From Nereocystis luetkeana (taxonomy: Eukaryota > Sar > Phaeophyceae > Laminariales > Laminariaceae), in the NCBI GenBank assembly GCA_031213475.1, contig JARUPZ010000003.1:10062463-10126462 (forward strand): a DNA stretch of 64,000 nucleotides, in the 5' to 3' direction. The position numbers and the translations under genes are program-made. Shown one piece after another: positions 5,403 to 63,931 of the stretch. Numbering within the stretch: position 1 is the stretch's first letter; the number at the start of each line of letters is the position of its first letter. A model generated the notes under the pieces. The model was not told the origin of the DNA. It ran no database searches and worked only from the letters and a program-made list of their open reading frames with translations.

Positions 5403-5919
5403 CTCGTACCAGTAGGATTTGTTTTACCCCTAGCGGTCTTCTTCTGGACAAGCCGTGGTCACAGGTGTCGTCCCTCTTCCCCCCCCGGTACGTGCCTTCA
5501 TTTCTTGTCGCGCATGAGGTCCACTCAGCATTCCCACCGCTCGTCGATTTTCATCGAATGTAGCTAAACTTCACGCTCTCGCGCTTTGCGCTTGTCATTT
5601 TGTAAGCAAGAAAAAAGTCCTCACGGGTACGTATATGCACTCGGTGACACTTGAACCCACGAAATTGATCTTAGTAGGTGCGCGGACCGCCTACTAAGCC
5701 ACCGGGGACGCCGGCATGTAAATTATTCAATTCACTAGTATCTTGAATTTCGGGACATATCGGTATACTGGTAACATATACGGCAGCACCAGGTACCATG
5801 CATACATATGTACCAGGTATACATACAGCACATGGAACCAGAAAGAGGACACATTGTTTTCCTCTTCTGTGGGGTAACGTTCCACTCCGGAGTTGTTGGA
5901 GCCTGCTGTCCGGTGCAAA
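5403..5919. other. No gene recognised
   Basis: The region contains a TACCAGGTA site at 5811-5819. No gene or other known repeat was seen. Confidence 0.4.
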
Positions 5920-6090
5920 GATGTCGGGAGACGTGTCAAGTGAGGCAAAGGACACGTGCGCTGTCAAGGGTGCACGCAGGGCCGACTGTTCCATACTAAA
6001 ACCTAGTGCTTTGAGGTCGGACAAGGCACGTCAAGGCAAGGGCGCTGTCTGTCAATGGGTGAAATGTGCTGTCTCCTGACGTACTTGGTC
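5920..6090 (+). repeat. Dispersed repeat D, copy 1
   Basis: This 170-190 bp family recurs at 18283-18470 and 21930-22135. Shared blocks include GGAGACGTGTCAAG, GCGCTGTCAAGG and TGCTGTCTGTC. It shows no coding capacity, Pol III boxes or inverted ends. Confidence 0.7.
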
Positions 6091-6127
6091 CTCTGCGGCC
6101 ACGGGGCTGCCTTTGCCGGCGTTGAGT

Positions 6128-6223
6128 CGACCCTTTTAGGACCGTAGTCCCGTTTTGGGGACAGACTACTTGAAATTTGACCGGTTTGTCCCCCAAACGG
6201 GACTGCTGTTCTGAAAGGGTTAA
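6128..6223. mobile_element. MITE-B copy
   Basis: Full length. The left TTAA has mutated to TCGA and the right TTAA is intact. Confidence 0.85.
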
Positions 6224-6527
6224 CGCCCCTTTCGGGCGCTTGAAGGGGAAACTTGAAAGCGGCTGATGCAGGCACACACAGAGCGGTAGGTCGCCACACT
6301 TGCTGCGTGTTAGGGGCAATGCTATATGCATGCGTAGTACACGTTCATGTCTGAGTTTCAATGCCGAGGAGAGTCGTGTGGCACTGGCCCTTCACGGCGT
6401 GGTCCTATTCTACTCCTCCACCCCTCCGTGCTGCTCTACGCTGACGAAGCTGTTCTCTCATCAATTTTACCAAACATTGTTTTCTTTGCTATTCTCGGGG
6501 GTCCCAGTCCCTGAGAGGCATACCGCC

Positions 6528-6618
6528 TTAACCCCTATAGAACCGCAGTCCCACTTTGGGGACAAACCACTCAAATCCTAAGTAGTTTGCCCCCAAATCG
6601 GGACTGCGGTCCGAAGAG
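6528..6618. mobile_element. MITE-B copy
   Basis: The left end TTAACCCC is intact and the right end is degraded after GACTGCGGTC. Confidence 0.8.
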
Positions 6619-6820
6619 GGACGAGTTTCAGCCCCCCGCTTTTCCTCCAAAAAAAAGACACTGGAGAGCGCACACAAAAAAGCGAAAAAATGATGGTGGC
6701 TTTGGAAATATTTCGTCGAGAAAGGTTGCATCTATATATGACGCATCATCGCTGGTCGTATTCAGTGCGTTTTCGAGAAACCCATCAGCTTGGAAAATCG
6801 TCCGAGAGGTGTGTTAATCT
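6619..6820 (+). repeat. Diverged dispersed repeat F, copy 1
   Basis: This segment shares ordered blocks with 39400-39605, 41640-41880, 43165-43380 and 44636-44775: a TTTCGTCGAGA-like block, then GCGTTTTCGAGAAA, then ATCAGCTTGGAAA. Divergence is high, and family membership rests on block order. Confidence 0.4.
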
Positions 6821-6836
6821 TATCACCCTAGTGTGA

Positions 6837-6920
6837 TATTACGGTACACTCAAAAAATCTATATGTTTCACCATTTTTACTCACACTATTTGGTCCTGTT
6901 TACTATGGCCCCCCGTAATA
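6837..6920. mobile_element. MITE-A copy 6 (left arm deleted)
   Basis: The right terminus GGCCCCCCGTAATA is intact. The left arm is reduced to TATTACGG, missing about 20 bp of inverted repeat. Confidence 0.75.
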
Positions 6921-7768: not shown

Positions 7769-8323
7769 ATTATTTCTTCGCCCAGAGAGTGCTACTACTA
7801 CTGCTACTGCTGGAAGAAAGTATACCAAGTACGTACATACGTACGTACGTACCAGGTAGTGTAGAAAAAGGGAAGACAAATAAATATATGCCAGGTATGG
7901 AGGAAAAAAAAGAGAGCCTGCGAGGAGATCGTTTTTTTTTTCGATTCCTCTCGAAAGTCATATTTTTTGTGGCAAGCTTGGTGTGACACCAAAAGAGAGG
8001 CACTTCGACAGAATGTTCTATGATATGTTCTTGTGTGTGGAAGAAGAGCGGTCTACCAAATATGACAGCTATTATTGATGTTGTCAGCATGCCATGATAT
8101 GACGATTGGTACCGCCGTCTTCCCCCGCCCGGAATAACGAATCACAACAACAATGTAATGAGTGCGTTCATTGGCCAGACGTGCGAGAGAGCGTGTGGTA
8201 GTTCCGAGAGACAAATCAATCACGGACAGAACCAATGGCAGGTGCGACTATACAGCAGTTTTATTTTATTTTTTTATTATTAATTGATTTAATTTAATTT
8301 ATTTATTTATTTTGCCCTCGCAC

Positions 8324-8420: not shown

Positions 8421-8429
8421 TGCCTTCTT

Positions 8430-9035: not shown

Positions 9036-9159
9036 TATATATTATCTCTTATTGGCAACATTCGAGGGCACGGCTACTGCTGTACACTACCAGGTATTAT
9101 ATCAATAGCCCACCCCGGCCAACAATAGTGTAATGTGAATGTGTTACCTACTGAGCTAT

Positions 9160-11005: not shown

Positions 11006-11377
11006 GCTGACAAATTCACCAACCATTGTTTTGGTCGCTGCCTCGGAGTGAGTCCCGACGGTGAGTTATGGCACTGCTTTGCATAAAAGGTTGAAAGCCG
11101 GGTAATTAATTACCAGGTACGTAATTACCTGGGTTCAGGCACTGGGAACGTATTTATTTGTGGTACTTGGAAGGCGTATCTTAGGTGGAAAACCAGTGTT
11201 TTTCAGAGACACACGAGCTTCGACTCAGTCTCCCCGTGCACGAAAGGAATAAAGCTGTGCTCTTCTTGTATCTGTATGCAAACTACACACGCGAGTACCA
11301 ACGAGTACCGGCTTAATTTGCAAGAAAAACTGTCCAGGGAAAAACAAAAGTCTCAAGCTGATTATCACTACGAGCAT

Positions 11378-11476: not shown

Positions 11477-11959
11477 CATTAATACTCGAGAGTATAAAAT
11501 GTCGCCGACATATTATAGAGTTGGTATTAATAGTTGGCTCGTGGGTATATATTATTGCAGTTATATACACAGCACTACCTATATATACATACGTAATGCC
11601 TGGTAGTATTTTTCCGAATTCTGCGTCTCATCATTCGACTGGCGCGTTGTCGCAATAAAAATAGTAGCTCGAAACGTAAGTTCGAAGCGCCCGGACCAGC
11701 CTTTCTTATTTTCAATACCTGACGCACGTGAAAAAAAAAAGAGGTCGTAATGGAAAACAAACCGGAGCGCTGATGACATATGTGATGCATCACAGGACCA
11801 CATCTTTAACGAGGTTTTCTTCTTTCGGGAAAGTTATGAGTGATCCATGTTGAAGATCATGCTGCACATTGTCAGATGGCAAGAGGAATAATAATAAAAA
11901 CATTTTTATACCAGGTATTCTCCAATTTTGAATCACACTTGGTTTTAGAGACCCTCCTT

Positions 11960-12391: not shown

Positions 12392-12500
12392 TATTACGGG
12401 GGACCATAGTTAACAGGACCTATGGTATACATAAAAACCTATATGTTTAACCATTTTTACTAACAATATTTGGTCCTGTTAACTATGGCCCCCCGTAATA
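12392..12500. mobile_element. MITE-A copy 9
   Basis: Full length, flanked by TA on both sides. Confidence 0.9.
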
Positions 12501-12878
12501 TTAATAAATACATACCTGGTAAATAATACCAGGGTAAGAAATACCAGGTAAGTAAGTGTAATCTCAGCCCTCCGGTTTGTTTTTCATTTTGGCTTTTTTT
12601 CATGTCGGGTGTCGAAATGACTCTGTTCTGGGTTCTGGGCGCCCCTGGCCGGCATGTAACGCATACATACGTACGTACGTACCTGGTACGAGTTATTGTC
12701 AACAAAGTCAGTTGATTTTGCGTTTGGTTTACTTCGCCACACCCGACTATCAACAATGCTACAGCAGTAATATTAACGCTACTACTTTTTACGTATGTAT
12801 GGTTAATTAAAACTCTATAATCCTGGTACCCGTGGATTCCAGGGAATAAGGCATGCCTTTCACTCACAGACCTACCAG

Positions 12879-15137: not shown

Positions 15138-15869
15138 GCCTCCCCCCCCGGAATTTCCGGGTTTGTGACACTATTTTCCCAGAATTTTCACATTTTTATG
15201 TGTGACAGTTTTTTTTTTCGCATTTTTTATTTTCTTGATTTTCCTGCTTTTTTTTCTCCAAATCTACATAAATAATTCACGAATACATTTTGACAGCAGC
15301 AGCAGTGTCAAGCGGCGAGACCCTGATCAGTCAGGCAGGCGATAGCGCCTGGCAGGTATGATGATGAGGCGACGCTCGCTACGAATCATAACCCCTTGCA
15401 AAACAGGGGCGAGGGGATACCAAAACAAATGAAGAACACCCCTCTCTGTATCTTGATCTATAATCAATTCACAAAATTTCACAAATAGAAATCTGGAAAC
15501 TCTGGAAATTAAGGCTTTCCGGTAACAACAACGGCCCCAAGCCGACTATTAATAAAGGGTGTTTTTCAAATATATTTATTAAATAAACAAGACTCACATT
15601 TCGAGCAAAACCAACAACGCGCCAGTCAGGTAAAACCGATACGCAGAACGTCGGAAATTACCGGACGCAACTATTATTCATAACACTGCTGTTTGTATAT
15701 AGGATACGAGTAATAATACCTGCTGCAGTTATTAATAGTAGACAAATATTACCAGGTAATAGTAGTACGTAACTATTTTCATGATTATTTCTCTTGCCAT
15801 TAATAGTCGGCAACTTATTATTTATTTTCAGCAGATTATACAGGCCAGCCAAGCCACATACCGATATAC
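15138..15869. other. No gene recognised
   Basis: AT-rich spacer with TATTAATA at 15730-15737 and TACCAGGTA at 15750-15758. No gene or classified element was seen. Confidence 0.4.
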
Positions 15870-16309: not shown

Positions 16310-17282
16310 TGTGTGTGTTATTCACATTAAACCGTGTTCTTTCTACCCGTCGACATCCAGCACAACCAGTGTCCACGCCGATTCTTCAATCCTAGAAGAG
16401 ATACAAGTTCTGTGGTGACAAAGCTATACGCCACAGAGATAATACGTTGCCACGTACCAGGTACCTGGTATGCAGTAAGCACAGCAGTGGGCAATGCAAT
16501 GCCATGTCACCATACTATTAATAAATACGACAGGCATGACATACACATTCTATGAAATAGAGAAACGAAAGGAAACAATCAAAGAGAAAACAAAAACAAA
16601 TGAGACAAATCGAAAGAGAAAAGGAAGGAAAATGAAGGCAAAAACTAGGAGAAACAATCTGGCGTGCCCCCCCCCCCGCAGGCGAGGTGGCCAACGCTTG
16701 AAAACGAACGAGCTGGAAAAAAAAAACAAAAAAACACCACTAACGGCTTGTAAACAGAGGAAGACAAAGAACCGAGGGAAAACTAACGAAGGGAAAATAA
16801 CAGGCAGACCAAAGCCCCAAGCACCCTCCAGGTGGCGGCAGCAGTTTGTGGTACGAGTAGTATAGCCAGGTTCTCCCTGCGGATCCGCCTGGTACCTTGC
16901 TACCTAGACTGTCGTCTGCGCCCTGCGTTCGTCAACTATGCCCAGCCCCTTGGCGGCAGACAATACGAAACGAGCAGAGCAGGTTCGTCATCCAACCACG
17001 CTACACGACTCCTTCAATACGGCTTATCAATCAAAAAGAGCAAGAGAAAGAAATAAAATGAAAATCACGGAGAGTCAGCGCAAGAATAAAAAAAAAAGAA
17101 AAAAAAAAGAGAAGACAAGGGAAGGCCACGTTCGAGCTATTAATAGCTGCACCAGTTGGTGGTACTATTTATAGTAGTATGGTCATGTTCTACTTCCTAG
17201 TCGGCCTGGTGCCTTGCCGCCCTGTCTGCCTACCCTTCCTACTTTCGTCTACCGCAGTTTCCCTTCCACTCCTCCTGTTCCC
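16310..17282 (-). mobile_element. LINE 3'-end copy L2 (5'-truncated)
   Basis: It aligns along its length with 19118-20093, the 3' UTR and last codons of the larger LINE copy L1. The 5' truncation lies at 17282. Relative to L1 it has extra short blocks at TA sites: TATTAATA at 16516 and 17138, TATTTATA at 17166, and a double CCWGG block at 16455-16470. Confidence 0.8.
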
Positions 17283-18739: not shown

Positions 18740-19075
18740 CTCGTATCTTTTCTTTTTCTCTTCCGATTTGTCTTTGTTTTGTTTTTACTTATTAATAGTT
18801 TCCTTTCGTTTTTATATTTCGTAGAATGCGTATGTCGTGCCTGTCGTATCCAGTATGATGACATGGCATTGCATCGCTCACTGCTCTGCTTACTGCATAC
18901 CAGGTACCAGGTACGTGGCAACGTAGTATCTCTGCTGTGGCCTACCTTTGTGACCGCAGAACTTGTACCATGTATCTCTTCTACTAATAGGATTGAAGAA
19001 TCGGCACGGACACTGGTTGTGCTAGTGTGCTGGATGTCGACGGGTAAAAAGAACGGTTTAATGTGAAGAACACAC
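18740..19075 (+). mobile_element. LINE 3'-end copy L3, inverted
   Basis: The approximate reverse complement of 19118-19440. It ends on the same tail (GACGGGTAAAAAGAACGG then TTTAATGTGAAG and ACACAC) facing L1 tail to tail across about 40 bp. It carries a double TACCAGG block at 18898-18913 at the position of the block in L2. Confidence 0.75.
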
Positions 19076-21905: not shown

Positions 21906-21929
21906 GAACCTACTGGTCTACTGCTGCTG

Positions 21930-22890: not shown

Positions 22891-23114
22891 CCTTCCTATT
22901 ATATTTAGGTTGGGTTGGCGTCGGTTGGCAACGACATTGTAGAACATGCCGCTCACTACGTGAGCTAGACAACCAGGGTACCGTTTTTGTTGTTGTTTTG
23001 GCGGTCGGTCACAGTTGGTTGTCGAGTTAGATCGTTTGTGTAAGGTGGACAACCTTTACTCCGCACACACAATACATGTAGGAATGATCGTATCACGTAC
23101 CAGGTACCAGGTAG

Positions 23115-24953: not shown

Positions 24954-25289
24954 GGAACAACATGGCCCCTAATATATGGGCCAAAAACGGGGGGGAAGAG
25001 ACAGTCTTCCCAAAATGTATTTAAAAATACTTCAAATAAATAAATGTAGCATCGATGGAAAAGCCTATTATCATAAACCGCGTATTTGAAACAACAGACA
25101 CCATGTTATATTCACGCAGTGAGTGGTGGTTCTCGAGATACATCCATCCATACATACATACATACATACCTGGTACATACATACCATACATACATACATT
25201 CTATACCTGGTACAGCAGTACCAGGTACCAGGTACACCGCACCAAACAAAGTGGGTGGGTGCTTTGGTGCTTATTTTGGGCATATTTTT

Positions 25290-25374: not shown

Positions 25375-25505
25375 TATTTACGGGGGACCATAGTTAATAA
25401 GACCAAATGTTGTTGTTATTAGTAAAATTGGTTAAATATATATATGGTAGGTGTTTATCTATACCATAGGTCCTACCAGGTATTAACTATGGTCCCCCGT
25501 AAATA
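25375..25505. mobile_element. MITE-A copy 13 carrying a CCAGG block
   Basis: A full-length copy with ends extended by one T/A. In the right arm, CCTATTAAC of the consensus is replaced by CCTACCAGGTATTAAC (25474-25482), a clean 7-bp gain at a TA. Confidence 0.9.
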
Positions 25506-25977
25506 CTGTACTTGGTACACTATAACTAAGGGTCAAGTAGGACCTCCGTGATACGCACGTACGGGAAATAACTACCAGGTACCAGGTAAGTAACTGACTC
25601 TCTCTGTATACGAACACATTTATTTCGATTTTTTACAGCAAACGGACGACCGTGCATGGATGGATGGATCCGGGTGGTGAATGGAGAATGGATGGAGTTT
25701 CGATTTGTTTATCGGTCGGTCCAGATTTCAATTAATTTTGAAGATGGGAGTTTCAGCACCGGAGGCACTCTCCTCTGCACTTCTCTCTCATTCGCGTTTG
25801 GCGCGGCGATGGACGGGCGGAAGGAACCCTTCGACCGTAGAGGCTAATAGGGGCATCCATGCCATAATACGTGGAGGGTCTGACGTAGCCTGGTGGAAGC
25901 AGAACTCCGAGAAGAGACGGAAGAAAGAACGAGGAATTAATGAGGTGCCGACTGTCCGAGACGGCCGCAGCTAATAA

Positions 25978-27646: not shown

Positions 27647-27746
27647 GCATTCCTACCAGGTATTATTTAGCAGTTATAGTTGATGTTTTCTTGTTTTTGA
27701 ATAAACACAGAATTTCTGACCACGGTGGGATTTGAAGTCACGGAAT

Positions 27747-27970: not shown

Positions 27971-28956
27971 GTGAGCCAACTATTTAATAACCGACTTGTA
28001 AGTGTTTCATCAATTAATTCGACACAACAAGTTAAGCCACCCCAACCAACAAACGCGGGAGGGAGTCAGATAACGCAGGAAGATATATTATTACCGCATC
28101 ACGCAGCACGTACAGACAAAAAAAGGGCGACTATATTATTAATAATGGAAGCATAAATGTCGGAGACTTATAGTCAGCCAGCTCTACTATTAATAATAGG
28201 CAGGGTTGGGGGTGCAACGTGCGAATAACCAAACAATCATTCAATCGATTGAGCCAAAGGGTTCAGCAGGAAACAACTGTAACAAATCGACATCACATCT
28301 TTTTTTAGCCCCAGACTCGGCAGGATGATGGCGGCCTAACGTCAAGTGAAACAAACCTAAAAAAACTAAAGAAATACAACAGTACCTTGGTATGTTTTTA
28401 TTTAATTCCTGACAAAAATCCCAACCCACTACGTATTATTCCTACTATTAATACCAGGTACCTGGTACCTGGTAGTATTTATCTGTGCTATTAATACTAT
28501 TATATGCTACCAGTACTTTTTTTTTGTTTTTAATTCCGACACGAGGGGAGAGTGTGGCTCCGTCTTTTTTTTTTTCGTGTACCCCCCTGATTCTGCACTT
28601 TTTTTTATTTTATTTATATCGCATAAGCGCTGAGGGTCTGCTCTGCGGTTCGGAAAAGCAAACGGCCTCGGCTTTGATGGTGTCTCAACGCTGTTCGAGG
28701 TACTGAATAGTAAGTTTAGCAAGTGCGGCTGGCTACGGATCAAACGGTCTCCCTGCGCGAGTTCTCCGGATCGAGGCTACACAGGAATAGGTAGGTGACG
28801 ATATCATACCCATCAAGCCGAATCGCGATGCCGAGCATTGTATACGCAAGAAAACCTGAACAATACGTACTGGTGGTGGTGGTGTGGGGTAAACAAAAAA
28901 TAGGTACGACCGACCCCTCATTCCCTTCGAATGCAGTGAGTACGCATGTACCAGGT

Positions 28957-28967
28957 ATGTATGTATG

Positions 28968-31651: not shown

Positions 31652-31981
31652 CCTCTTGTCCGGTCGAGACTAGCTAAGTGTTGGTTTTCTTTGAGATCGA
31701 ATAGAAAGGAACGCGAACCCCTAGCAACGAAGCAACCCCGAACGTTTTTTTGTGTTTTTCGCCAGCATAAAAAAGTAGCAAGCGGCGCAGGAGAGGGGAG
31801 GAGAGCAGCAGGAGGAGAGGGCATCAAATCCGGGAAAGCCGAGAGGACGCGGGCGGCCGTTCGTGCCAACGCATACCGACCTAACCGCGGGAATCGGAGG
31901 ACCCTCGTTTCGGTGGACCCCGGAGAAGTTGAGGCAGGCAATCAGCGCGCCTCCCGTCACCGCGCTCCTTCCACGAGCAGC

Positions 31982-32704: not shown

Positions 32705-34065
32705 GTACGAATCTTTTATCATTTCCGAACGACCTCGCACTCTTCCCCGGGCAGACAGCGGTGCTCGTGATGCTTCTGCTTCGCTGCTGCTGCGCACGTC
32801 GTTCAAACTCCAAATAAAAAAATTAAAAAAAACAACTCTTTTGCCAGGCTTTGTTGGTACTACGTACAGAGTACTTCTCCGTGTGTACCTGGTATTAAAT
32901 AAAACCCATACTACGATCTAGTAGTTTTGTGACACGGCACGAATTCGAGGTGAAGTTGAGAAGAATTTAGAATTTGGCTTCGGTTCCTATTGGATTTTGG
33001 TTGGTATTGTCAGCTGGGTATCGTCGGTAGACTTCAAAGTACTATTAATATTAATATTAATATCACGATAGGCACCTATACCTGATTCTACATATTCAGT
33101 GGTATTATTAATGTTTGTAGTTGTATTATTCATATTCATAGTAGAGGAAAATCAACGTTCAAGGCCACAATGATGTCGTGTCAGACAACCAAGCACAGCA
33201 GCAGCTGCAGCTGCAGGACCGGCAACAGCATTCAGCGGATGGGTGTGCATGCGGCACAGCAGTTTTCACTAGCTTTTCACGCTTTCTTTGTGGCCAGCCA
33301 GCCAGACAGCTCGTTGCGACGAGCCGAACAGCAGCAGCATCGTGCAGCATCTGCTCACAGATTTTCCATGTCGAATTCCATGATGCATAGTCGTACGTGG
33401 GCGGATGGATTTCGGTATCAAATACCTGGTATTATTAGTATTAATAGTTTTTATAGTATCAATGTTAATTAATAATAGTGCGCGAACCACACAAATGTCA
33501 CCTATTGACCCCGTTAGGAATATTCGTCCAAATAGCGAGGTTATTTGCCTTTTTTTTCGTTTAGGCTTTGACGACAACGAAACTCCTATTTATCTCTCTG
33601 GGCCCTCACCGTCTAGACTACTCGTATTAAAGCTAACATAAAAGGAAAAATAATCATGATCCTCTCAGCTTTCACGTAAAGCGGCACAGCGAACATTTTA
33701 TTGGGCGAAGCTTGTATCCTCCTTCCCTCCCTCCCTCCCTTTTTTTTTTTCGTTGGGTGCTTTGTTGAGTTCGGCTCGATCCGGTGTTTGTACTGCTGTA
33801 TGATCCTCGTGTCTCAGAGGGCTATTTATCCGTTTAACCGTATGATCCAATACCTGATGCTTCGACCAGTACTCGTACGTCTATATGCGTACCAGGTACG
33901 TACGTATAATTTGAAGTATACGAGCTTACCTGGTATCCGTTTCCCCTTCTTTTCTCTTTGCAAGACCGGTTCGGGTTTGTTTTATCTGTTATTAATATCT
34001 CCGCCGTCTGCTTCTAAAATCGCTGTCTTCCTGACTTTGGACCGGTATGTGCTGAGGTGGAGGCG

Positions 34066-34109: not shown

Positions 34110-34811
34110 TTAATAGAACTTTTTCAAAGTCAAAGAAGAAGGTGTCATGATGGTGGATATATAATGTATGAACATACGGGCATGATAGGGGTGTTTTCGT
34201 ATCGGTTTTTGTGTAAATGTGCGAGGTTGGATGTGCGAGGTTGGTTCTACTGGACATTCTTTGGTTTATTCCAGAAAGTGCATCCTTGACTTTAAAGTGC
34301 GCTTTCCGTACATTATACAGCAGTCAGTACCGGTATAAATTTACATACTACTTACCATACTCATAGGTGGTATCATACATACACCCTTTAGACCTGATTC
34401 TCGGGGTAAATATGTTGTTGTTCGCCATGTACTGTTGTATGAGCTATCGTCGTGCCACCCGTTTTTAGTCCGTGCCCGTGCTCCCAGGACGGGAACCAAA
34501 CCTGCTCGAGTGGAAGCAGGAAACTATTAGTGGTACATACGTACCAGGTAGCCAGGTCTACAGCATAACAAAATGGGCACATTCCGCTTATTTACACGTC
34601 ATGTTTACTCACACAGGTATTATTAAAAACATTATTAATTGTACTGGTTTATAGTACCAGACACCAGGGGTACCGCTCTCCTCGTCTGGCGTCGCGCTGA
34701 ACTGAAAAGTTTACTCAGACGTGTTCTGAACAGAGTGCGCTCAAAGAAATCATAAGTAACGCGCATATGCAATGGAATTGGGATGGGCTTTCTTTCCTGT
34801 TTCCTATCCCT

Positions 34812-34863
34812 TGTACCGCCGCCCGTCCGTACCTATTGTACCGCCGCCCGTCCGTACCTGGTA
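34812..34863. repeat. Tandem duplication of about 26 bp
   Basis: TTGTACCGCCGCCCGTCCGT plus ACCT occurs twice. The second unit ends in TACCTGGTA (34855-34863), whereas the first ends TACCTATTG. Confidence 0.8.
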
Positions 34864-37455: not shown

Positions 37456-38376
37456 GGCTGGCCCATACCTACCGGCACCGCTGTGGAGGCCCGTTTACTG
37501 ATTTTGTAGGCCAACAGGACGAATTCACAAGGGCGACTTTGTAGGTCCACAGCAGTCTTTTTACTGCTTATCACCGGTACTTACTACTGCTGTACTTACT
37601 TATTCACCTGCTGTACCAGTACGTAGTCCTTGACCTTTCCGCGCTCGGAAACTTCGAGTAATAATCCCGCGTGGGGAGGGAGGGGGCAGAATCTTGATAA
37701 ACTCATTTGCCATGTTACATAATGCCATACCTGGTATATACATACTCCTGAATGTCTTTTTGATTTGTTGTTCCCTCCGTCGGGCTTGCAAGAGTCACGA
37801 CTGTGAACACGTCACTACTATTTATAGGCTATCATTAGACCTGCAGCGGCAAGGAAGTTACGTTTTTTTCTGTCTACAGCAGTGGTCACAGAATATGCGG
37901 TATATATGTGAGTGCGTGTGAAACCGCTCCGGTACCGCTTCACCTCCTCGTGCTTTATTAAACTCCTCTTGCGGTCTGCGTAGTTGATAGTCGACTGTTT
38001 CTGTGAGAGTTCTGTTAATAGTGCACGTAATAGGCTGACAACTTTGTCTTCCCGCTGCGAACGAGCTTATCGTGTGCCTGGTGCATTGGAAATTACCGGT
38101 ACCGTACGATGACAATGTACAGCAGTATGGTAGCTCATACCTGGTACATATTCTAACGCTGCAAACATTCTTCCGACTCTTGCGCTGAAAGTCGTTCCGT
38201 GATCATCGTTTGAATGTTTTGTTTTTGGAAGCGGTAGCCCAACAGGCAAAAAGGACGGTGGTTATGACATACCAGGTATCTATTTGTTACCTGGGCATTA
38301 TATTGCCTGGAGCAGTCAAGAGCGTTGAGTGCGCACGGGGAAGGGCGCGATCGTTTTTCAGCGCTCGCTTTCCCTC

Positions 38377-38472: not shown

Positions 38473-39017
38473 CAACGGTGAGGGATGCTAAAGGTCGAAG
38501 TACCAGGTACCTGGTGTATATGTACCTTTGGTACATATTTTCGAAAGGCTCTCTCTTTCACTTGACCAGATCTTTCAGAAGACATCTTGTCTTCTCCAAT
38601 GTTTTCAACATTAGCAGTTCCCGTTCTGGGGGAAGAAAAAAAAAACGAGCGCTGAAAATCGATCGCGCACGCACACCTGTTGTGTCGAACTCAAACCAAC
38701 TCTCTTGACGGTATGTCTACTATAAATATTGCGTAATGTTTGTCTTGAATCACTCACTTGCGTGGACTAGTAAATGTCTCCCTCCTACCCACAAACACTA
38801 CGGTACTCGCAGTCCACGGTGTGGTGAAAATATATCTACAGTGCTTCTGCTCGTAGTCCGAAGTGTTGACTTTTGTAGTGCCTTTTACCCTGTGAGTAGT
38901 ATCCGGGGAAGTACATTTTTTGCCACTATAATTACAAGAGTACGCCAGCAACAACGACGTCGTGGATCGATCACCTCGGAGAACCGCCACCCACCTCATC
39001 AGTTTGTATGACGAGCC

Positions 39018-40145: not shown

Positions 40146-40767
40146 AAACAAACGTTATCGTATCCTGTTGCGATGGCGCCTGGTCTTTGATACCCTGGCA
40201 TTAATAGTACAAGCACCAGGTGTGTTGTACCTGGTGTGTTGTCTGTGTGGAGGCGACGATTTATTCTACCAAAAATCCACCCGTTGGGACGAAAGAAACG
40301 AAAAAAAAATGACGATTTTGTCGAGCACGCGGGGAATCATAATTTTACCTATTTCGAGTACCTGGTATGTACAATCGAGAAAAGGGGGGGGGGGGGGGGG
40401 AAATGTGACGCTTTCGTACTGCAGCAGCGCGTTTATTGACGATAGCATACTGAAGTCTCGAGGAAAACGGCGATACAATCCGTACTGCTCGGTTTATGGG
40501 TATTCTTTCTTTTACCCTTTGGAGCCCTCACCAGATAAAAAGAAAAGAAAAGAAAAAAAGTGAGAGGCTGCTACAAAGCTACCTGTAGGTCGACAGGTGC
40601 GATCTTACATTATGTACAAACCCTGAACGGTCCAAAGACTGTCGTGCCAGTGTTTTCATACGTACGAGGTAATGTCGTGCGGCGGTCGCCGTCTCGGAAA
40701 AACTGCCCCGTACCTGGTACGTTGCAACTCGAAAGCTTTTGCTTTGCTTTCGCCTAGAAGCCCTAAT

Positions 40768-41386: not shown

Positions 41387-41639
41387 GTAGCTCTTCCCAC
41401 TTCGTGGGTAAAGAGGGAAGGCCACAGTACATGTACAATAATAGTCGGAGGTGTTTTCGGCCTTACCACTCCTGTGTTCTATCGGGGTGCCAACTTGTCT
41501 ACCAGGGTATTATATAGTACCTTTTGGAGCCCGTGTTGGTATTATTTTGCGACAAAATCGCTCAGAAATGCGGGTCTTGTCAATCGTTGTTTACTGAGAT
41601 GAATGAAGGGCCCTGTTCATATCCAAATGCGATGCGTGT

Positions 41640-41880: not shown

Positions 41881-42170
41881 GTATGTTTTCTCGTGATGAC
41901 ATGTTCCTGTACTATGTTAGGACCAGGAATTCTTATTTTTGTATATACATACCTGGTATATACGGTTTTCATACCTGGTACATACGTTCATCATATCATA
42001 CGTCTATGCCGCTTTGGCCGTAAACATGACGGCCGCTTGGCCTTTAGATTAATGTCTGAACGGTCCTTACATTTTCGCCCACAGTAGTGCTGTGTAGTGA
42101 AGTAAAATGCAGCGCGCGTGTGGTGCAAGTGTTTTTGCGTTGAAGTTCGGCTGATTACTCTCTAGCAGCA

Positions 42171-42282: not shown

Positions 42283-43164
42283 TGGCCCCTCTTGATGTAC
42301 GGTGAACAAGGGCGGCACTCTAAATATATTATAACGGCAACGGCACTTGTCAGCACACGACTTTCGAGCACCACACCGGCGACCCAGCCGTCCCAAGCGA
42401 TTCAACTAGGCACTATTTTAGCGGGCACCGAGTGCTCCTCTACCGGCGCTATACGTAGAGGGACAGACCACTACCTGGTATCTATCACGGCAGTGGATGT
42501 ATTACATTACCCGTGCCCGAGCTGCCTGCCGAGCAAAAATGTTTCATGTTTGACGGTCTAGTTTTGGTCACTGAAGGCAGGCCTCTCCAGAGTTGTCAAG
42601 TGTGTTAGTTTTCGTGAGCGGAATTCCAAAGGGGCAAGGATTGCGCCTGCTTACCAGGTATACTGGTACCAGGTATATAGCACCAGGTATGTATATCATA
42701 CACGTGGCTGACGCTGAGAGATGTGTAAGAGATTGCCGAAGACTGCTTTTGTCCGACAGCGTGTCTACGCACCCATGTGGGATGTGGGTACGTAATTGTG
42801 TGTTTTAGATTGTTTCGGTGTTGGCCCCATTACTGCTACGACTCTGTCCTGTAAGGACCGTTTCAATACTAAGATGAAGTGAAGACATAATGGGGACAGA
42901 AGTGGTAGCTGTTGAAGAGTACCTCTCGGTACATTTTTTCCGGCATACATTTAATTCCGCGTCTACGGCAGTTATGTACGTAGGCTTGTGTGTGCGTGTG
43001 TGTTTGTTGGGGGAAATATTAATATTAATAGCATCTTCTGTGAGGCTCACGAGCTGGATTCTAGGTGGCCCCTCGCAGGCGAGTGGCTTAATTAAACCAA
43101 TCGTCCAGAAAAATCGAGTGCACGTTGGAGCAGATGAAGCAAAGTGCACGAGCGAAAGGCACTA

Positions 43165-43380: not shown

Positions 43381-44171
43381 TTGTGCTACCATGCGTGTTG
43401 TACGGGTACGTACCGTTCGGGTTATAGCTGCCAGGCTACGTATTAGCAGCAGGTAGCCGCCGGAGGGCGAAGCTCACCCCCTTTTGCCAGACAGCAGCAG
43501 TTTTGCCTTGATTTTGCCCTGACTGGCACCAAAATAATATTACTTTACTAACAACTGCAGCAACTACTCGGCGTCTAAGCACCATTGACAGCGCACGTTT
43601 TGCCTTGCTCGAGGTGTCGCCTGACACAGTAGTAGCCAAAGGGTAATGAACGCATGCCGGTAGCACCCTGTGTACCAGGTACATGGCGCGGTTTTGTTTG
43701 TTTTTTTTTCATCTTTCTTCCTTCATTTTGTGGCGGGTACCGGCAGGTTTCGTGTTTCCGAGGAGCGAAGCGTCCCCCACAGGCCCGGTTTCGGCGAAGA
43801 CATGTCTCAACCGGCTATATATATAGAAGTGCCAGCAACCCATCCGCGAATCGTAGTTTTTGCACCACGGTTTCCTCCCTTACTCTCGGAAAGGGTGAAC
43901 ATTTTGTGCACGTGGGACAGTTTGTACATACACATAAGTACCTGGTACCTGGGGGGGGTCCCCACCGGTGATTTCTACCTGGTGGTCTGTGACGGTCGGG
44001 ATTGATTTCCCAGCAAGTAGAGCTTGTTACCACTTTTTCGAGAAAATGGGAATGGTTGAGTTGCACCACCGTGCAGGAGAGAGACACCAGGGGGAAAGCT
44101 GCTTCAGCGAGGGGTTGCGCGGGGTTCTCTTATTCGAGCAGGGTCAGGGTCAAATACCCGGTCGTGATGAT

Positions 44172-46159: not shown

Positions 46160-46275
46160 ATAACGGGGGACCTTTAGTAAATGGGACCAAATATTGTTTG
46201 TAAAAATAGGTAAATACATAGTTTTTGTTTGTACGATACCTGGTAGGTCCTATTTACTATGGTCTCCCGTAATAC
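46160..46275. mobile_element. MITE-A copy 20 carrying a CCTGG block
   Basis: Full length. In the right half, ATAGGTCC of the consensus is ATACCTGGTAGGTCC (46237-46245), a 7-bp gain at a TA. Confidence 0.85.
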
Positions 46276-46893
46276 CGACTTCAACCGCAACCTTCTTTCT
46301 TCTTTTTTTGCTTCTCGCTTGTGTATTCACTCTCGCCTACTAAAGTTGTACCTGTTTTTTTTTTTTTACACGTCGTTTCCTATTTGGCCGCAGAACTATC
46401 CCTGCAGAATTATTACGAGATTGCGAGAAAAAGAAAATCCCGCAACGCCTCTCCCCGGTCGGCAATATACGTAGGTATTTTTTTTTGTGTACTACATTGT
46501 CACATTATTAATAGTACTGCCGCAGCCGTCTGACGTGTGCCGGTATGATATCAGGGGTATACCAGGTACGAGGTATTTGTTTTTTTCACAGGCGGTGCAA
46601 CTACGCTCGCAGCTATAAATATATGCCGGTTACATGTACGCACGTACATTTTTTTACCGGGTGCCGTGTAGTACCGCTCTCTTCTGGGCAGCAGTCCTCA
46701 TTCGGACTCTGTGATGCGAACGTCAAGTGGTCACTATATTTTCGGCCACCGGCAGTGGTGTGGTATATATATTGTCGCTCTACCTAATGTAGGAGGTATT
46801 AATAGTATGTTTATGTTTTTACACCGGGGTGTATAAACCAGAGTGTACAGATCACAGATTTTGCGTGTGTTCATCGTATTATCAGATTACACG

Positions 46894-46946
46894 GCCTACC
46901 AGGGTACGTAATATTTGGTCCTATTTACTATGGTACCCCCGTGTTA
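46894..46946. mobile_element. MITE-A fragment (right end)
   Basis: Only AATATTTGGTCCTATTTACT and GGTACCCCCGTG remain. Confidence 0.7.
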
Positions 46947-50222: not shown

Positions 50223-50567
50223 AGGAAGGGTATTGGGATGTAACGATTCATTGTCCGGAGACCATTTGTTTGTCGTGCGTCTTTATTGAACCCCTAACGC
50301 TGAAAATAGTCGCCAAGAGGCTATTAATTGAGCGTTGAACGTGATGATTAGGGCTTGTTTTGAGGTGACTTGACTATTGCGTTGCCGACTACCAGGTAGT
50401 TCCGAGTTGGCTGGCTATTGCCATTAGTTGCGTGGGGTAATTTGCGGAAATCTGCGTCTTGTACTGGTATCTGTCTTCCTACCACTTGTTATTCCAGATT
50501 TGGTCCGATTGGCTCGGGTTCAGGTTGGTAGGGTTGCTCTGATTGGCTTACGGTTAGGGTTACTGTT

Positions 50568-52990: not shown

Positions 52991-53325
52991 GGTCGCCCCG
53001 GTGGTTCAAGTTGTTAACCTCGAATTCTACTTGTTCGAGTCCTGGGTTCGAGCCCCAGGTGGGTCGGACTTTGACTTTATTTGCAAAAATAAAAAAGGAT
53101 ATAATTGTTGAGAGCGCCTTGCAGCGTGGGTAGGCACAATTCGATGCGAGTCGACGAGGGAAGAAAAGGCTGAAATCTTCTCGCGATAAAAATGAAGGCA
53201 CGTACCGTAGCGGGAAGGGGGGAGAAGAGCCTGCTATGTGACCCAGGATCTGAGTACCGAGTTGGAAGGAGAGAGGGAAGAAGATGTGCGAAGATAATGA
53301 ATGGGATGAGAAATAAAATAAAATA
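52991..53325 (+). mobile_element. SINE1 full copy
   Basis: Complete head and body, followed by an A-rich tail. The roughly 40 bp left of it (TTTCCTGTCTGGAAGTCC and on) recur at about 53380-53420, so the locus is duplicated around the SINE. Confidence 0.85.
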
Positions 53326-54148
53326 TATATATATATAGTACTAGGTATACGAGTATATCAGTCGTTTTTTGTTTTGTTTTTATTTCCTGTCTGGAAGTCC
53401 ACGAGAAGGATATATATATATATATATTGTATATATATAATTATCCTGGTATAGTATACCAGGTACGAGTATATCAGTCGTTTTTTTGTTTTTTTTTTGG
53501 CGGAATTCTGTCGGCTCTTGCTTGAAGCTTCGAGTGAAATTGAAGGCGGAGCTATATTCGAGCCTCGATCACACGCACGCACGGCACACCCTCCTTGATG
53601 GTTTTGGTGGTGGGTAGGAAGGGGTCGCAACTCTTGCCGCTGTTCGTAGTAGCCGGTGGAAGCCGTACATCATGAAGAAAGAAAAAAAAAACGCAAAGCG
53701 AATCATCATCGATCTCTCCATGTTTTGTGATTCCATTTTTGTCTCTCCTATTTTTTGTTCTACATACTTCGTTGATGATTTAATCGTACCGGTATGAATT
53801 TACCGCGCGATTGAATCGATCGATAGTGATTGATTGAAATCGCATGGATGTACGTTACCTCACAACGATTGAATCGGCAGCCCCCTCTAGCGGTTCATAA
53901 TTCTCAGCCCTATACTAGTTTGTGTTGCCCCAGGATAAGCAAGCATCCATCAATATTCATAGCTCGGGTACCCGTTCGAAGGCAGCTTAGTTGGCTTTGT
54001 TGCTGTAGTAGCGCGTTGCGTTACGTTTTTTTTTTCTTCTTTTTTTTTTTTTTTTGCCAGAAGCGCCGAACGGCTGGCGAAAGAAGAGGCGCGCGGCTTT
54101 TTTTTTTTTTTTTTTTTTTTTTTTCCTCGTGCGGGCATTTAATTTATA

Positions 54149-54969: not shown

Positions 54970-55090
54970 TTTTACGGGGGACTACAGTTAATAGGACCTA
55001 TGGTAACATAAAAAAACTACCAGGTATGTACGACTGAACCGTTTTTACGAACAATATTGGGTCCTGTGAACTATGGTCCCCCCGTCATAG
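54970..55090. mobile_element. MITE-A copy 24 carrying a CCAGG block
   Basis: Full length. The consensus AAACCTATATA region contains CTACCAGGTATG (55018-55026), a 7-bp gain at a TA. Confidence 0.85.
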
Positions 55091-55595: not shown

Positions 55596-55716
55596 TATTA
55601 CGGGGGACCATGTTAAGTAGGACCTACGGTTGACACAAAAAACCTACCAGGTATATATTTCGCTGTTTTTACCAACAAGAATTGGTTCTATTAGCAATGG
55701 TTCCCCCCCCCCCCCT
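55596..55716. mobile_element. MITE-A copy 25 carrying a CCAGG block
   Basis: The consensus AACCTATATATTT is here AACCTACCAGGTATATATTT (55645-55653). The right end is degraded into a C-run. Confidence 0.85.
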
Positions 55717-55862
55717 TTTATTTGTGTTGGCGTCGTCAAAACTCGAAACTCGAATTCGCTCGCAATAAGAGAGAATAAAATATGTTGGAATGTGTGTACC
55801 TGGTACCTGGTATATATTTCTGTTCGCAAGAAACGTTTTGAAAAGGGGGCAGGCGCAACAAA

Positions 55863-55945: not shown

Positions 55946-56474
55946 GGCGCCGCATCCACCACCACCATCACTATGATACCACCACCGCCTCCTCCTCGTT
56001 ACGCCACTTGATATCACGATACATACTCTCGGGGGAGTATCTCACTCTTTCTTCCCTGTATAAGACAACGCCGTATCCTTGCGTGCTCCAGGAAATAGGA
56101 AATAGAGATGCGTACGTATCGTAAAGCAGTTGTTGTTGTTGTCACATCGACACATCGCCTAAAATCCATCGTAGTCCGTGGTCACAGAGCAGGCTCGAAA
56201 AACTCTTGGGGAGTGGGAGCATATACATACCTCAGTGCAAAAATAAAACACGACATCATACTCATAAAACACCATGAAATCAGATATACGTGATACGGAG
56301 TGTCTACCGGGTACACGAGTGCGTGTCTCGAATGGGGGATTTAGGATTTTACGTATACGACGTACGAGATGGTATTTAAATTTTGTTCCGTTTTTGCTTT
56401 GCTTTGCTTTGCTTTGCTTGCTTTTTTATGTGTGTGTGTGTGTTTTCCGTTTTTTCCGTTTTTTTTTTTGGCAG

Positions 56475-56960
56475 ATCTGCTCCACGGGAAGATTCAAGGG
56501 GGACGTATCGTTCGGATCGATCGTCGTAGAAAACGGAGGGAAGCTCGAGGGCAAGGTCAACTACGGAGGCTGCCGTTCCCCCCTCCCAGAAACCGAGGAC
56601 GGCGCTGGCAGCGGCGCCAACGGGAGCGGCGAGGACAGCAGTTCCTCCACCACCACCACCACCACCAAAACGAAAACCACCTCGGGTACCACCGCCGCCA
56701 AGGCCCCAACCCCGGTGGGGACGGCCACGCCTGTCACAACCCCTACGGCCACCGCCACACCCATCACCACGACGACCCCAACCAGTCCGGGCACCGTGAT
56801 GCCGTCCGTAGCCGCCACAGCGGCCGCATTCAAGAAGCCAGTTTTGGCGGCGGCTTCAGTGGGGCCGGGGTCGGGCATTGGACGGGTGAAGCTCTTGAGG
56901 GTGACAGGGGCTTCGCCGAGGTCGTCGCTGCGCCCAGTTCCCATCCAGAGCCCTGAGTAG
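56475..56960 (+). CDS. Bactofilin-like protein, exon 2
   Basis: Encodes residues 242-402 and the TAG stop. It enters in phase 0 after TTTTTTTGGCAG and completes the bactofilin domain with STGRFKGDVSFGSIVVENGG and KLEGKVNYGG (to residue 273), matching the Gly-rich last turns of the family. A low-complexity C-tail follows: Gly/Ser, a Thr run with Lys, then Pro/Thr/Ala-rich sequence ending PIQSPE. Such disordered tails on both sides of the helix are usual in bactofilins, though these are longer than in most bacterial members. The open frame left of 56475 is intron and not part of the protein. Confidence 0.85.
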   Translation: MCSTGRFKGDVSFGSIVVENGGKLEGKVNYGGCRSPLPETEDGAGSGANGSGEDSSSSTTTTTTKTKTTSGTTAAKAPTPVGTATPVTTPTATATPITTTTPTSPGTVMPSVAATAAAFKKPVLAAASVGPGSGIGRVKLLRVTGASPRSSLRPVPIQSPE

Positions 56961-59619: not shown

Positions 59620-62600
59620 ACCACCGCTGTAGTACATACAGTATGTTTGGCCTCATTCGGGGGCCGCTTGAATAGAATGAGCGAAAAAGTCGAGCGAGAG
59701 AGCTTCGACTTGCAAAGCTCCTCCTTCCTTCCTTCCTTCCTTCCGTCCTCTGCTGCCTTATTTTGTTTCGTTTTTTTCTGGTATCTTTTTCGTCCTGGCT
59801 CCTTGCTTCTCGCTCTCGCCCTTATCTCTTGTTCTGGTAGGGACTTGGGGGGAGGAGAGGGGAGGGGAGGGGGAGGGGGTTCAGAAAGCAGCAGTCAGAT
59901 CAGTTGTCGTTCGTGATGGTTGCGGTTGTGGCTGTGGCTGTGGGCGTCTTTTTTTTTTTCTTTGCGCCATTTCACGCAGGCAAAATAAAAATGCCCCCCA
60001 CCCCCCCCCCCCCGCCCTTGCCAGCCAGAACGGAACCAAAAATTGTTTGCCCCCGCGGTCGCGTACCAGGTCCGTCTTGTTCTTTTAGTTTGACCGTTGG
60101 TGGTAACGTTGGCGCTGACAATGCCGTTGGGGAATGCTACGACGATAAAAGACGGACGGCGTTGGACTTGAAAGGGAAAAGCCCGCTGAGCTTGGGAGGT
60201 AGAAGAAGAAAAAAATGCTGCGCCAATGAACCAAAAAAAAGTAGCGATTGGCCTCCTGACCCCACCCGACGTTTTCACCCACGAAAGACTCTCGGAGAGC
60301 GGAGAAACCTTTTTTTGTTTTCTTTTTTTATTTCTATTTTTTTTTTCACGTTTGCTGTATTAAGTCTAATCGGCGGGGCCGTGTATAGTAGGTAGTAGAT
60401 GGGTATTAGGTGTGTGTGGGCGCGAGTAGGCCCCCCTCTCCCCTCTCATTTTTTTTTTTTTTTTGTTCTCCTTTTTCTTTTTTTTTTTTCGTTGCTGCTT
60501 TTTTTTTGCACACGCTGCAACGAAAGCACAAGCCGCAAAGAAGACGAGAACTTGCTTTGGTTGCGGGTCTCAAGAGAGCAAGAAGGGGCGGGGGGGGGGG
60601 GCGGGGGGGGGGGGGGAGTGGGATCATCGGGGGGGAGGGGGGGGGGGGTTCAGGCTGGGCGATTTGAGGGGGGGGGGGGAGGCGGGAGGATGCTAACTTG
60701 TTTCCATCCTTTCGCCCACTGCTTTGCTCGTTTGTAGAGGGGAAGGAAATTGGGCGGGGGGGGGAGGGGGGGGGGGGGGGGGGTAGGTGCGAATACTATA
60801 GTGGTTTCCTACGGGCTGGTTGCATGACTGGTGCAGTGGGGACTTTTCGGAGTTCGTAGTCTATCTGTCGTTGGTGGCCGGGGTTGGGGGAGGGAGGGGC
60901 TTATGTTTGGCTTCCGGCACCGTGCTGGGGAGGGGAGGGGGAGGGGGGGATGGGTGTGTATGTTGTCGTCCTCAATGCTTCGGCGACGAGAAAGGCGCGC
61001 TGCAAGGGGAGGAGAATGATGCGCGCGGTTGAGCGGAGGGAGCGCGGCAAGGTTAGGGTGGTGTCGAAGCATGGGGGGGGGAGGGAGGGGATCGGGTGAG
61101 AGGTGGAGTGGCCAGGTGTGCCAGGGGCGTGGGGGTGTGGAGGCGGGGGCGGCAGAAGGATGAGGGGGGGGGGGGTGATGGGGGCGGTCAGATTTCCTTA
61201 CAGTTGTTTCACATATCGGAATGTACAGAGAGAGAATGAAAAAGCACGGACGACAAAACCAAAACAAAAACATAAAACGCTGTTTTGTTTTGTTGTTGTA
61301 TCATTTTGTTTCGGTGCCAGCCCCCCCCCCTCCAGAGAGGACTAGAGACCGACCCCTCTCCTCGTTTGAGTGTTTTTTCTAGTGTGCATTTTTGGAAGAT
61401 TATGGAGAGTGAGGTCGGTGGTGATTTGGGTGGAGGCGGGGGAAGGGGGGGGGGGGAGGGAGAGGGTGACTCGGGGTGCGACATGGATGCATTTCGTTTC
61501 TAGTTGGGTGGGTAGGGTGGGTCGGTCCACTTCGGAAGATGTTGGTGAAAGAGGAAGATGGCAAAAAATAAGTATATCTGTGTTGGGATTTCGGCATTTG
61601 GTCCGGCGCACAGTACGTTTCCGTGTGTTTCGTTACAACTTCTTTTTTTTTTTATATCGTTCGTGCCTTGTTAGCACGAGGGTGGGGTGAGAGGGGTGGG
61701 GGGTTGGGGCTGTTTTGTGTAGTCTTGTCGTGTAATCGATTCAGCTAGCAAAGCAAGCGATGCTTTACTTTACTTGACTTTTTTATGATGTTGGTTCGTC
61801 GTGGAGGGGAGGGGAGGGGGCGGGGGGGGGGGGGGGGGGGCTTCGAACGGACGCTTTTCTCTCGTCTTGCACATTTTTTTTGTCGTCGCCCTCTTCCATG
61901 CTGGTCACGAAACACCAAGAAAAAAGGTAGGGTTAAAAGTCTAAACTAAATCTAAGTATTATTATTACAACCTCGGCTTTCTTTCGTTCTTTCTTTTCTT
62001 GATTCCCTGTGTCTTTTCTTTTTTAACGATGGCGTACGGCTTTGTGTTTGTACAAGCGCACGTACAAACAAGCACGAAAAGAAATGCGCAGATGCTCTCC
62101 TCTCCCGTTACGTATTCATGTGGAGATAAGGAGGAGGTGTCGCTATTGTAATATGGCTTTCTCACAACACTCGATGGATTTTTTTTTTTTAATACGAGTA
62201 CATGTTATGAGCTACTATTAATACCACCCCTCCCTTGCGTGATTCGGGGAAAACAGCCCACCCGACCAGGCTCTGAAATCCCATTTATCGGAGGAGGCGC
62301 ACTTTAAAAAATGGTAAGAGATATGGTGTTCCGTACGTAGGGGCGGGCAGGCTTCCGGCTTCCGTTATCGCTCGGAACCGGAGCCGTGAGCCGTTGGCTT
62401 TTCTTAGAGGCGAGGGGAGACATTCAGCGATATATAGGTATCGGCAGACAAGCTTTCGCGTAAACACTACGGTACCTACCGCCGTAAAGGACCAGGCAAA
62501 CAACAACCTATTGATGGCTGTTGGGGGGTGGGGCGTCCTGCTCCCGCTGTGCTATCGTACTGCTGTGCTGGCATACCACTCTGTCCCGTCATACTATTAA

Positions 62601-62636
62601 TAAGTTTTATATTAGTAAGTAATCGTATTTTAACAG

Positions 62637-62690
62637 GCGCGTGAGCGCGAAGCGCGTGAGCGCGAAGCGCGTGAGCGCGAAGCGCGTGCC
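62637..62690. repeat. 15-bp tandem repeat, three units
   Basis: Units of GCGCGTGAGCGCGAA, themselves rich in GCGC palindromes. Confidence 0.9.
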
Positions 62691-63436
62691 TTTTGTTCTT
62701 GGTTTTCCAAGGGAAAAGAACAATCCGTCTGAGCCAAGCCTCGCCTGCTGGGGTGCCGTCTGTGCTGGTGCCGACTGGTCTCTTTTCACACTCGCACCAA
62801 CTCCAACTGCGACTTCGCAAAAAAGAAGACCAGCAAACTGATGAGAACAGCGTTCGAATGTATTTCATCGAGGGCAATAACCACTCTAAATGGTGATTGA
62901 TACGTGACTATTAATAGTCAATTCTTTGAAGATCAATGAGTTGCTGATGTTGATGCGCACGATTTTCACGCTTCCTTCCGCCGGTCAGCCAAGTCAACCA
63001 ATCAGGTTAACCTTTCTTGCGAATGTTTTTGCTGTTCATTTCGAACGCATTTTACCAGCTACTCGTATAATAAGTACCGAGAAATATATTTCAGGCATGC
63101 ATACTCGTACATACATTGGCTCCCTCGCTAGTCGGGGGAGGGTCGGAGGGGGGGGGGGGGGGGGGGGGGGTGATCAGGGCTCTGTTCGCTCGCTCCGATA
63201 CATATTTCACTCGAATTTCACGCGAGCCGTTTGTTTCCATCGTCTTTCGCTGAAACCGATTGAACTTTAGAATTGAAGATCCGTTCACTCGTATTCCTGA
63301 GCCGAGTTCACAAACTTTGTAGAACGAGATCATTTTCCAGGAGTATTCCAGCAGCATTCCTTCGCTCTGTTTGAAGCATGTACGGTATGTATATATGCAT
63401 TGTGTATGTATACAAGGCGCTTCGCTCCGCGGGCGG

Positions 63437-63459
63437 CCTACGCCGCCCGCTACGCTCGC
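63437..63459. repeat. Perfect hairpin, 9-bp stem
   Basis: GCGGGCGGC and its complement GCCGCCCGC separated by CTAC, inside a sequence of GCTCCGC/CGCTCG words. No T-run follows, and the role is unknown. Confidence 0.5.
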
Positions 63460-63931
63460 TCAGGAAGGAAAAAAGTACATCAAGTTACGCGAAGGGGACA
63501 GAAGTAGGTCGATGATTGAACACATTTTTTATGATCGTTGTTTCAAACTGGCGACTTGACAATTGCCAAGAGTCACACCGTACGTACGTACATACCCCGG
63601 GTAGGGTACGAGTACTTATTTTCTTCTTTTTTTTATGCTGTATGTACCTGGTATGTACGAACGAGAAAGCACAGAACGGCATAATATATAGCAGCAGCAC
63701 CGCAAAAACAATGAAAATGGAACCGAAAATGTCGGAAAGAAAAAAAAAATCCATATCCCCTCTCATGAAATAATTGTCTGCCCCCGGAACACCTTGCACC
63801 AGTCGAAAAAGAAAAAAAGAAAAATGAACAGCAGAGCTTCTCTCGCAGCCTCGTACGCCGCCCGCCCCTCTCACGACCACCTCGCCAACGATTCGGTCCG
63901 GGTGAAGTTTTCCTCCCTCTCTGTCTCACAG

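Follow-up and report, generated by a model that had tools for sequence, protein, structure and literature searches.

We observed that the 9-bp word TACCWGGTA, in which W is A or T, is scattered far above chance through a 64,000-nucleotide stretch of the kelp Nereocystis luetkeana genome, and we consider it very probable that this word is the scar left when a cut-and-paste DNA transposon is excised, an element that targets TA, duplicates it on insertion and has the ends 5'-CCAGGG...CCCTGG-3'. The stretch (hereafter the window) is C3:10062463-10126462, where C3 is contig JARUPZ010000003.1 of assembly GCA_031213475.1, which comprises 465,085,209 bases in 1,987 contigs. A first-pass annotation of the window had read the word as a transposon footprint. 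That interpretation is supported by the genome-wide count, by gains of the block at TA and by an asymmetric 6-bp class; the element itself was not found, and excision is therefore inferred from the scars.

The annotation had counted 57 exact sites, far over chance, and our count agrees (first at 5811, last at 63645), compared with a mean of 0.63 and a maximum of 4 in 100 dinucleotide shuffles. The middle base is A or T, as had been described, with A in 34 sites and T in 23, and 57 of 58 matches to TACCNGGTA carry A or T there. Among window words of the form TA-N5-TA, CCAGG (34) and CCTGG (23) stand out, the next commonest being GGTCC (7), a sequence of MITE-A, a miniature inverted-repeat transposable element (MITE). 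Merging chains that share a TA leaves 49 loci. Across the 465 Mb assembly, with the same pattern reversed as the control, we counted 182,395 TACCWGGTA sites vs 1,744, a frequency roughly 100 times that of the control, or about one site per 2.5 kb; double blocks numbered 15,917 vs 2. The window is richer than average, with 57 sites per 64 kb vs 81 across four other 50-kb stretches. Together with these stretches and fifteen 3-kb loci picked for holding doubles, it makes up a 309 kb set, whose 162 chains comprise 135 single, 26 double and one triple block; a 268 kb set consists of DNA not picked for doubles. No other genome known to us holds a single exact footprint at such a density. A single literature search for both 9-mers as words found no paper, which says little, a search on kelp genomes and mariner transposons turned up nothing on such scars, judging by titles and abstract openings, and one on mariner excision in brown algae gave a single review.

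Other sequence collections were scanned as well. In a viral collection, the search for double blocks returned 9 scattered contigs with no excess past the matched double save one extra site; three scans of that collection, two of them for the MITE, gave no match, a LINE (long interspersed nuclear element) query found no relative there, and the phage records scanned gave no match. A genome collection yielded two contigs (L010, L011) of bacterial metagenome-assembled genomes with MITE-A-like ends of ~120 bp, one beginning acctggta; these MITE-A pieces at contig ends are probably misassembled host DNA.

To locate gains of the block, we took the 160 chains with adequate flank, deleted the block and compared each against the whole 309 kb set, using a mechanical rule under which a few rows align poorly (e.g. 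J27 42334 and J42 32359). A spanning paralogue was present for 36 of the 160 chains, and at least one gapless empty paralogue for 19 of these 36. The annotation had expected gains to fall at TA, and 143 of 168 gapless empty rows do show TA at the insertion spot. Paralogous copies differ by a gain of 7 or 14 bp, always placed at the TA of the block, and, as in Tc1/mariner elements, the TA is duplicated, with CCWGG plus TA gained at TA. Of four clean gains claimed in MITE-A copies, three are clean against other copies and occupy three distinct consensus TAs, namely those at 25474 (GGTCC-TA-TTAAC), 46237 (CGA-TA-GGTCC) and 55645 (ACC-TA-TATAT), whereas the block at 55018 lies at the corresponding TA in a gapped flank (1 of 34 rows gapless). 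The comparison of LINE copies stood: in L2 (16455) and L3 (18898) one shared position holds a double block, and L1 has none, reading CACGTG vs their CACGTA plus blocks. Of three further LINE copies outside the window, two are empty and keep the TA, and one (the fifth copy) holds the variant TACCAGTA. All seven chains named by the annotation are present, the one at 28452 being a triple. Two families bear out its suggestion that chains arise when one TA is hit repeatedly: in the first, the three copies of one TA have no block, one block and two blocks (L019), and in the second the block is single in three copies and double in one (L017/L024/L025/J27).

The palindromic form and high copy number of the word would also suit a functional site for protein binding or a segment of some longer repeat that is conserved. 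However, flanks show a weak target bias and otherwise differ between sites, and the word has been inserted at TA within other repeats. It is also rarest in GC-rich DNA: when 2-kb bins are ordered by GC and split into sixths, the four poorest in GC have 9.9-14.4 sites per 1000 TA, vs 3.5 and 1.4 for the two most GC-rich. We give this explanation almost no credence and reject it on the unrelated flanks together with the gains inside other repeats.

The sites of the window are as follows. No strand is assigned to any block, the 6-bp variants lie on the plus strand, and all lines other than these variants give exact matches.
5811..5819, single block TACCAGGTA
7850..7858, single block TACCAGGTA
9088..9096, single block TACCAGGTA
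11111..11119, single block TACCAGGTA
11909..11917, single block TACCAGGTA
12513..12521, single block TACCTGGTA
12527..12536, plus strand, 6-bp variant TA-CCAGGG-TA
12542..12550, single block TACCAGGTA
12680..12688, single block TACCTGGTA
15750..15758, single block TACCAGGTA
16455..16470, double block (A,T), LINE copy L2; empty LINE copies elsewhere in the genome
17512..17520, single block TACCAGGTA
18898..18913, double block (A,A), LINE copy L3, LINE position as at 16455
23098..23113, double block (A,A), with empty paralogues in other parts of the genome
23739..23747, single block TACCAGGTA
25167..25175, single block TACCTGGTA within a TACA microsatellite
25204..25212, single block TACCTGGTA
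25219..25234, double block (A,A)
25474..25482, MITE-A copy with the block as a clean gain of 7 bp, also by copy alignment
25573..25588, double block (A,A)
27654..27662, single block TACCAGGTA
28452..28474, triple block (A,T,T)
28949..28957, single block TACCAGGTA on the border of a GTAT microsatellite
32886..32894, single block TACCTGGTA
33423..33431, single block TACCTGGTA
33890..33898, single block TACCAGGTA
33927..33935, single block TACCTGGTA
34542..34550, single block TACCAGGTA
34855..34863, single block TACCTGGTA
37728..37736, single block TACCTGGTA
38138..38146, single block TACCTGGTA
38270..38278, single block TACCAGGTA
38501..38509, block, then an incomplete second block (TACCAGGTACCTGGTG)
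40359..40367, single block TACCTGGTA
40711..40719, single block TACCTGGTA
41500..41509, plus strand, 6-bp variant TA-CCAGGG-TA
41950..41958, single block TACCTGGTA
41972..41980, single block TACCTGGTA
42472..42480, single block TACCTGGTA
42652..42660, single block TACCAGGTA
42667..42675, single block TACCAGGTA
43673..43681, single block TACCAGGTA
43939..43947, block, then TACCTGGGGGGGG (half-double)
46237..46245, MITE-A copy with the block as a clean gain of 7 bp, second consensus TA, also by copy alignment
46560..46568, single block TACCAGGTA
46897..46906, plus strand, 6-bp variant TA-CCAGGG-TA
50390..50398, single block TACCAGGTA
53457..53465, block that its local duplicate 53323-53381 lacks (empty site), by duplicate comparison
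55018..55026, block in a MITE-A copy with gapped flank alignment, also by copy alignment
55645..55653, 7-bp gain in a MITE-A copy, third consensus TA, also by copy alignment
55797..55812, double block (T,T)
63645..63653, single block TACCTGGTA

Since the block is palindromic apart from its middle base, A or T in the middle is uninformative about the element ends. Longer inserts are asymmetric. Genome-wide, the 6-bp class consists of 11,422 copies of TACCAGGGTA (reversed 409) vs 1,578 of TACCTGGGTA (reversed 362), and the 7-bp class TACCAGGGNTA of 1,596 (reversed 383), counts that are inflated by copies inside repeats. In the local DNA, a TA comes next in 10 of 18 TACCAGGG cases vs 2 of 23 TACCTGGG cases (Fisher p 0.0017); the surroundings of the ten TA-flanked TACCAGGG sites differ by eye, and in local TA-CCAGGN-TA the N is G in 10, A in 1, and C or T in 0 each. 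Half-doubles, in which TACCWGGTACCWGG lacks the next TA, occur 1,299 times in the genome vs 6 for the reversed pattern, and among 100 listed 55 continue CCAGGGT and 3 CCTGGGT. All six CCAGGGT half-doubles that we read are TA-CCAGGG-TA, and two of twelve further ones are TA-CCAGGGG-TA. In the 7-bp class, N is G in 55, A in 33, T in 7 and C in 5 of 100 listed. The 6-bp class was made at joining, because growth of the G run in symmetric blocks would give both words equally; the 7-fold excess of A over T rules out such mutation as its origin. The 6-bp asymmetry thus points to element ends 5'-CCAGGG. The annotation had proposed CCA or CCAGG, which the 6-bp class narrows to CCAGGG; no element bearing such ends was found in the 309 kb or at the 18 half-doubles read.

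We propose that the transposase would leave 5-nt 3' overhangs CCAGG on both flanks, which would anneal CC:GG on either side of a single A:A mismatch. Repair of this mismatch to A:T or T:A would give CCAGG or CCTGG, and occasional overhangs of 6 and 7 nt would give CCAGGG and CCAGGGR. The ladder of 5, 6 and 7 bp is as expected because overhangs of an end 5'-CCAGGG(R), with this supposed overhang chemistry, would produce it. A scar of terminal bases with the mismatch resolved either way, as in Tc1/mariner, fits the 34 A and 23 T sites and the CCAGGG-rich 6-bp class, yet doubles mix less than predicted. The element may now be rare, diverged or lost, with mostly scars left.

The frequency of doubles exceeds ~10-fold the value expected from the mean rate per TA (9.6% vs 0.94%), which fits either a strong target preference or re-use of scars; local reinsertion or slippage may contribute. 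Among half-flanks, 49 of 270 beside singles and 24 of 54 beside multi-blocks have a TA at 7 bp, vs 8.0% at all TAs. Some loci of the multi-block set were picked for being doubles, and the set also holds related copies as well as a small number of decayed blocks. Around singles, TA is in excess at 2, 4, 8, 11 and 14 bp as well. The target would include a second TA 7 bp away, and a scar of the form TA-N5-TA would restore that spacing, allowing scar re-use and chain growth; a 7-bp spacing preference recreated by the scar may thus be the cause of chains. We further entertain, tentatively and at a little below an even chance, a self-feeding ghost transposon whose scar recreates its own target, such that one low-copy or vanished element wrote ~182,000 scars, 15,917 of them serial, and past jumps exceed living copies by orders of magnitude.

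Several points weigh against the excision reading, beginning with the make-up of the multi-block set just described. The first 59 listed doubles are AA in 23, TT in 17, AT in 14 and TA in 5 cases; mixed doubles (one A block and one T block, TACCAGGTACCTGGTA and TACCTGGTACCAGGTA) thus account for 19 of 59, compared with the half expected if repair were independent (chi-square p 0.006), and AT is commoner than TA. In 12 of the 36 comparable sites a paralogue itself has 7 or 14 extra bases, some sites having both such a paralogue and an empty one, and the sites are not all separate events, part having been copied within repeats. One repeat family holds two of the six 6-bp sites read elsewhere in the genome plus one local site, and TACCAGGGTA recurs every 528 bp in a tandem array (C1:1305185-1308353, within C1:1304145-1308362). 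The main class of 5 bp lies outside the 2-4 bp given for Tc1/mariner footprints in an excerpt of PMC7913693. Finally, the traces expected of the element are absent from the DNA searched: 133 half-sites in 309 kb have no common inner sequence (~75 are expected by chance with equal base use), none of the TA-bounded inverted repeats in 309 kb (up to 4 kb, at most 2 mismatches in 14) begins CCAGGG, and the 18 half-doubles read contain no element, twelve of them having no common inner sequence.

The absence of a visible element would also be expected if a 7-bp word were inserted directly, by fill-in or slippage, with chains arising as tandem slippage. Unmixed doubles (AA or TT), at 40 of 59 over half, agree with this, and slippage may add some doubles. 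Slippage is, however, unable to make a first block or the mixed doubles; the 5/6/7-bp ladder with its fixed CCAGG-G-R matches the overhangs of an inverted end, and TA specificity with a 7-bp target preference matches a transposase. We regard direct insertion as very improbable.

The search for a source element, which the annotation had supposed to exist, found none in the 309 kb or at the 18 half-doubles; these negatives cover that DNA, and some thousands of genome copies remain compatible with them. In the 8 of 18 local cases where TACCAGGG lacks the next TA, nothing is common save one short interspersed nuclear element (SINE)-like repeat, and at 4480 and 9206 TACCAGGG belongs to such longer SINE-like repeats. 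Block ends were rejected as element ends, the TA-bounded inverted repeats in the window and the 309 kb being blocks, MITE-A, or LINE or SINE-like pairs. MITE-A was rejected as the source, its ends (CGGGGGACC) being incompatible with CCWGG. A DDE_3 profile gave 0 matches among 30 candidates, with the control matched in 3 of 14 genomes, and a Transposase_1 profile gave 0 matches but also none in control genomes and is hence uninformative. DDE_1 (pogo-type) has 28 matches in the genome, several within open frames and none tied to scars. The one of these 28 loci that we read (L048) has a 352-aa open frame with DDE_1 and a block nearby; it was rejected as the source, with no convincing TA-bounded inverted repeat and no CCAGGG ends.

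Altered forms of the word bear on the age of the scars. In the 309 kb set, TACCGGTA occurs at 15 sites vs 4.8 expected and TACCAGTA at 32 vs 15.4 (order-3 Markov), an excess that fits one-base loss at the join. One-mismatch forms in the 268 kb set number 242 vs 116 on both strands, an excess of ~63 beside 138 exact sites, which suggests an average scar divergence of roughly 5%. These data also bear on programmed excision, in which TA-bounded elements, in the past or at another life stage, would be cut out by a domesticated nuclease that leaves CCWGG, much as ciliates remove internal eliminated sequences (IESs). Very many scars with no elements seen would follow if removal were near complete in the sequenced DNA. 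Against this, gains in individual MITE and LINE copies and the chains show that insertion went on, the one-mismatch decay indicates scars of varied age, and we know of no two-nucleus life cycle in kelps. We consider programmed excision very improbable.

Some related words and repeats were noted in passing. In the 268 kb set, the one-mismatch form CACCAGGTA occurs 20 times vs 2.8 expected and CACCTGGTA 8 times vs 2.8. In the 309 kb set, TA-CGAG-TA / TA-CTCG-TA occurs 73 times vs 15.2 expected, perhaps as a second footprint class or as a repeat-borne word, and TA-CAG-TA / TA-CTG-TA, the word of the Sleeping Beauty footprint, 102 times vs 51.4. MITE-A is present in many copies (window 3385-3454, 12392-12500 and others) with ends TTACGGGGGACCATAG. 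A palindromic repeat, D3 (window 6126-6225 and 15 more copies), has TTAA-like ends (TTAACCCTTTTAGAACCGCAGTCCC) and resembles a TTAA-type MITE. Among genes, the open frame 31652-32770 encodes a bactofilin domain, with a partial protein of Laminaria digitata matching 65% of the frame at 89% identity and weaker named matches in Hapterophycus and Ectocarpus; frame 56268-56960 resembles, by eye, a continuation of it ~25 kb away and has no Pfam match. A LINE reverse transcriptase lies at 20007-21917 on the minus strand, and an Ectocarpus protein (49%) is the only eukaryote-named match among the 120 matches listed.

If the excision reading is true, the history of a cut-and-paste element is recorded by its scars, not its copies, with one scar in roughly every 2.5 kb. 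One assembly would then suffice to read off how often the element jumped, its target rules and the outcomes of repair, and to measure directly how many excision events there were for each surviving copy. The scars, at 7 bp, would shift reading frames, and they are scarce in GC-rich bins. The deduced CCAGGG ends offer a concrete handle for locating the element in kelps.

Among known systems, Sleeping Beauty leaves the footprint TAC(A/T)GTA, its central mismatch repaired either way. The kelp scars share with Tc1/mariner elements the TA duplication and the end bases kept between two TAs and, with the element ZB of that group, a palindromic AT-rich target preference (excerpt of PMC7913693). They differ in their 5-bp CCWGG, their extreme uniformity, the 182,395 sites, a TA 7 bp off in the target and the lack of a found element. 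Judged from sequence, the source behaves like a Tc1/mariner-type element and likely belongs to that group. Ciliate IESs have TA boundaries, number tens of thousands of sites and undergo precise programmed excision. The boundaries and the tens of thousands of sites resemble the kelp pattern, but IES excision is precise and leaves one TA, whereas the kelp keeps a 5-bp insert, CCWGG. Pogo/Tigger elements belong to a TA-targeting superfamily, and DDE_1 open frames are present in the kelp genome; footprints of the pogo/Tigger element Passer are 0-4 bp in an excerpt of PMC9976928, in contrast to the 5 bp seen here, and the kelp DDE_1 locus read lacks CCAGGG ends. PlantMar elements are, according to part of PMC7325037, reported only from plants and stramenopiles. 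Stowaway and plant mariner-like elements likewise leave TA-bounded scars from inverted-repeat bases, but in the portion of PMC1925063 used here each footprint keeps a fragment of 1-4 bp from CTCCCTCC-type ends, with a handful per locus, compared to CCAGGG ends genome-wide in the kelp. The same portion of PMC1925063 provides a precedent for insertion next to an older footprint.

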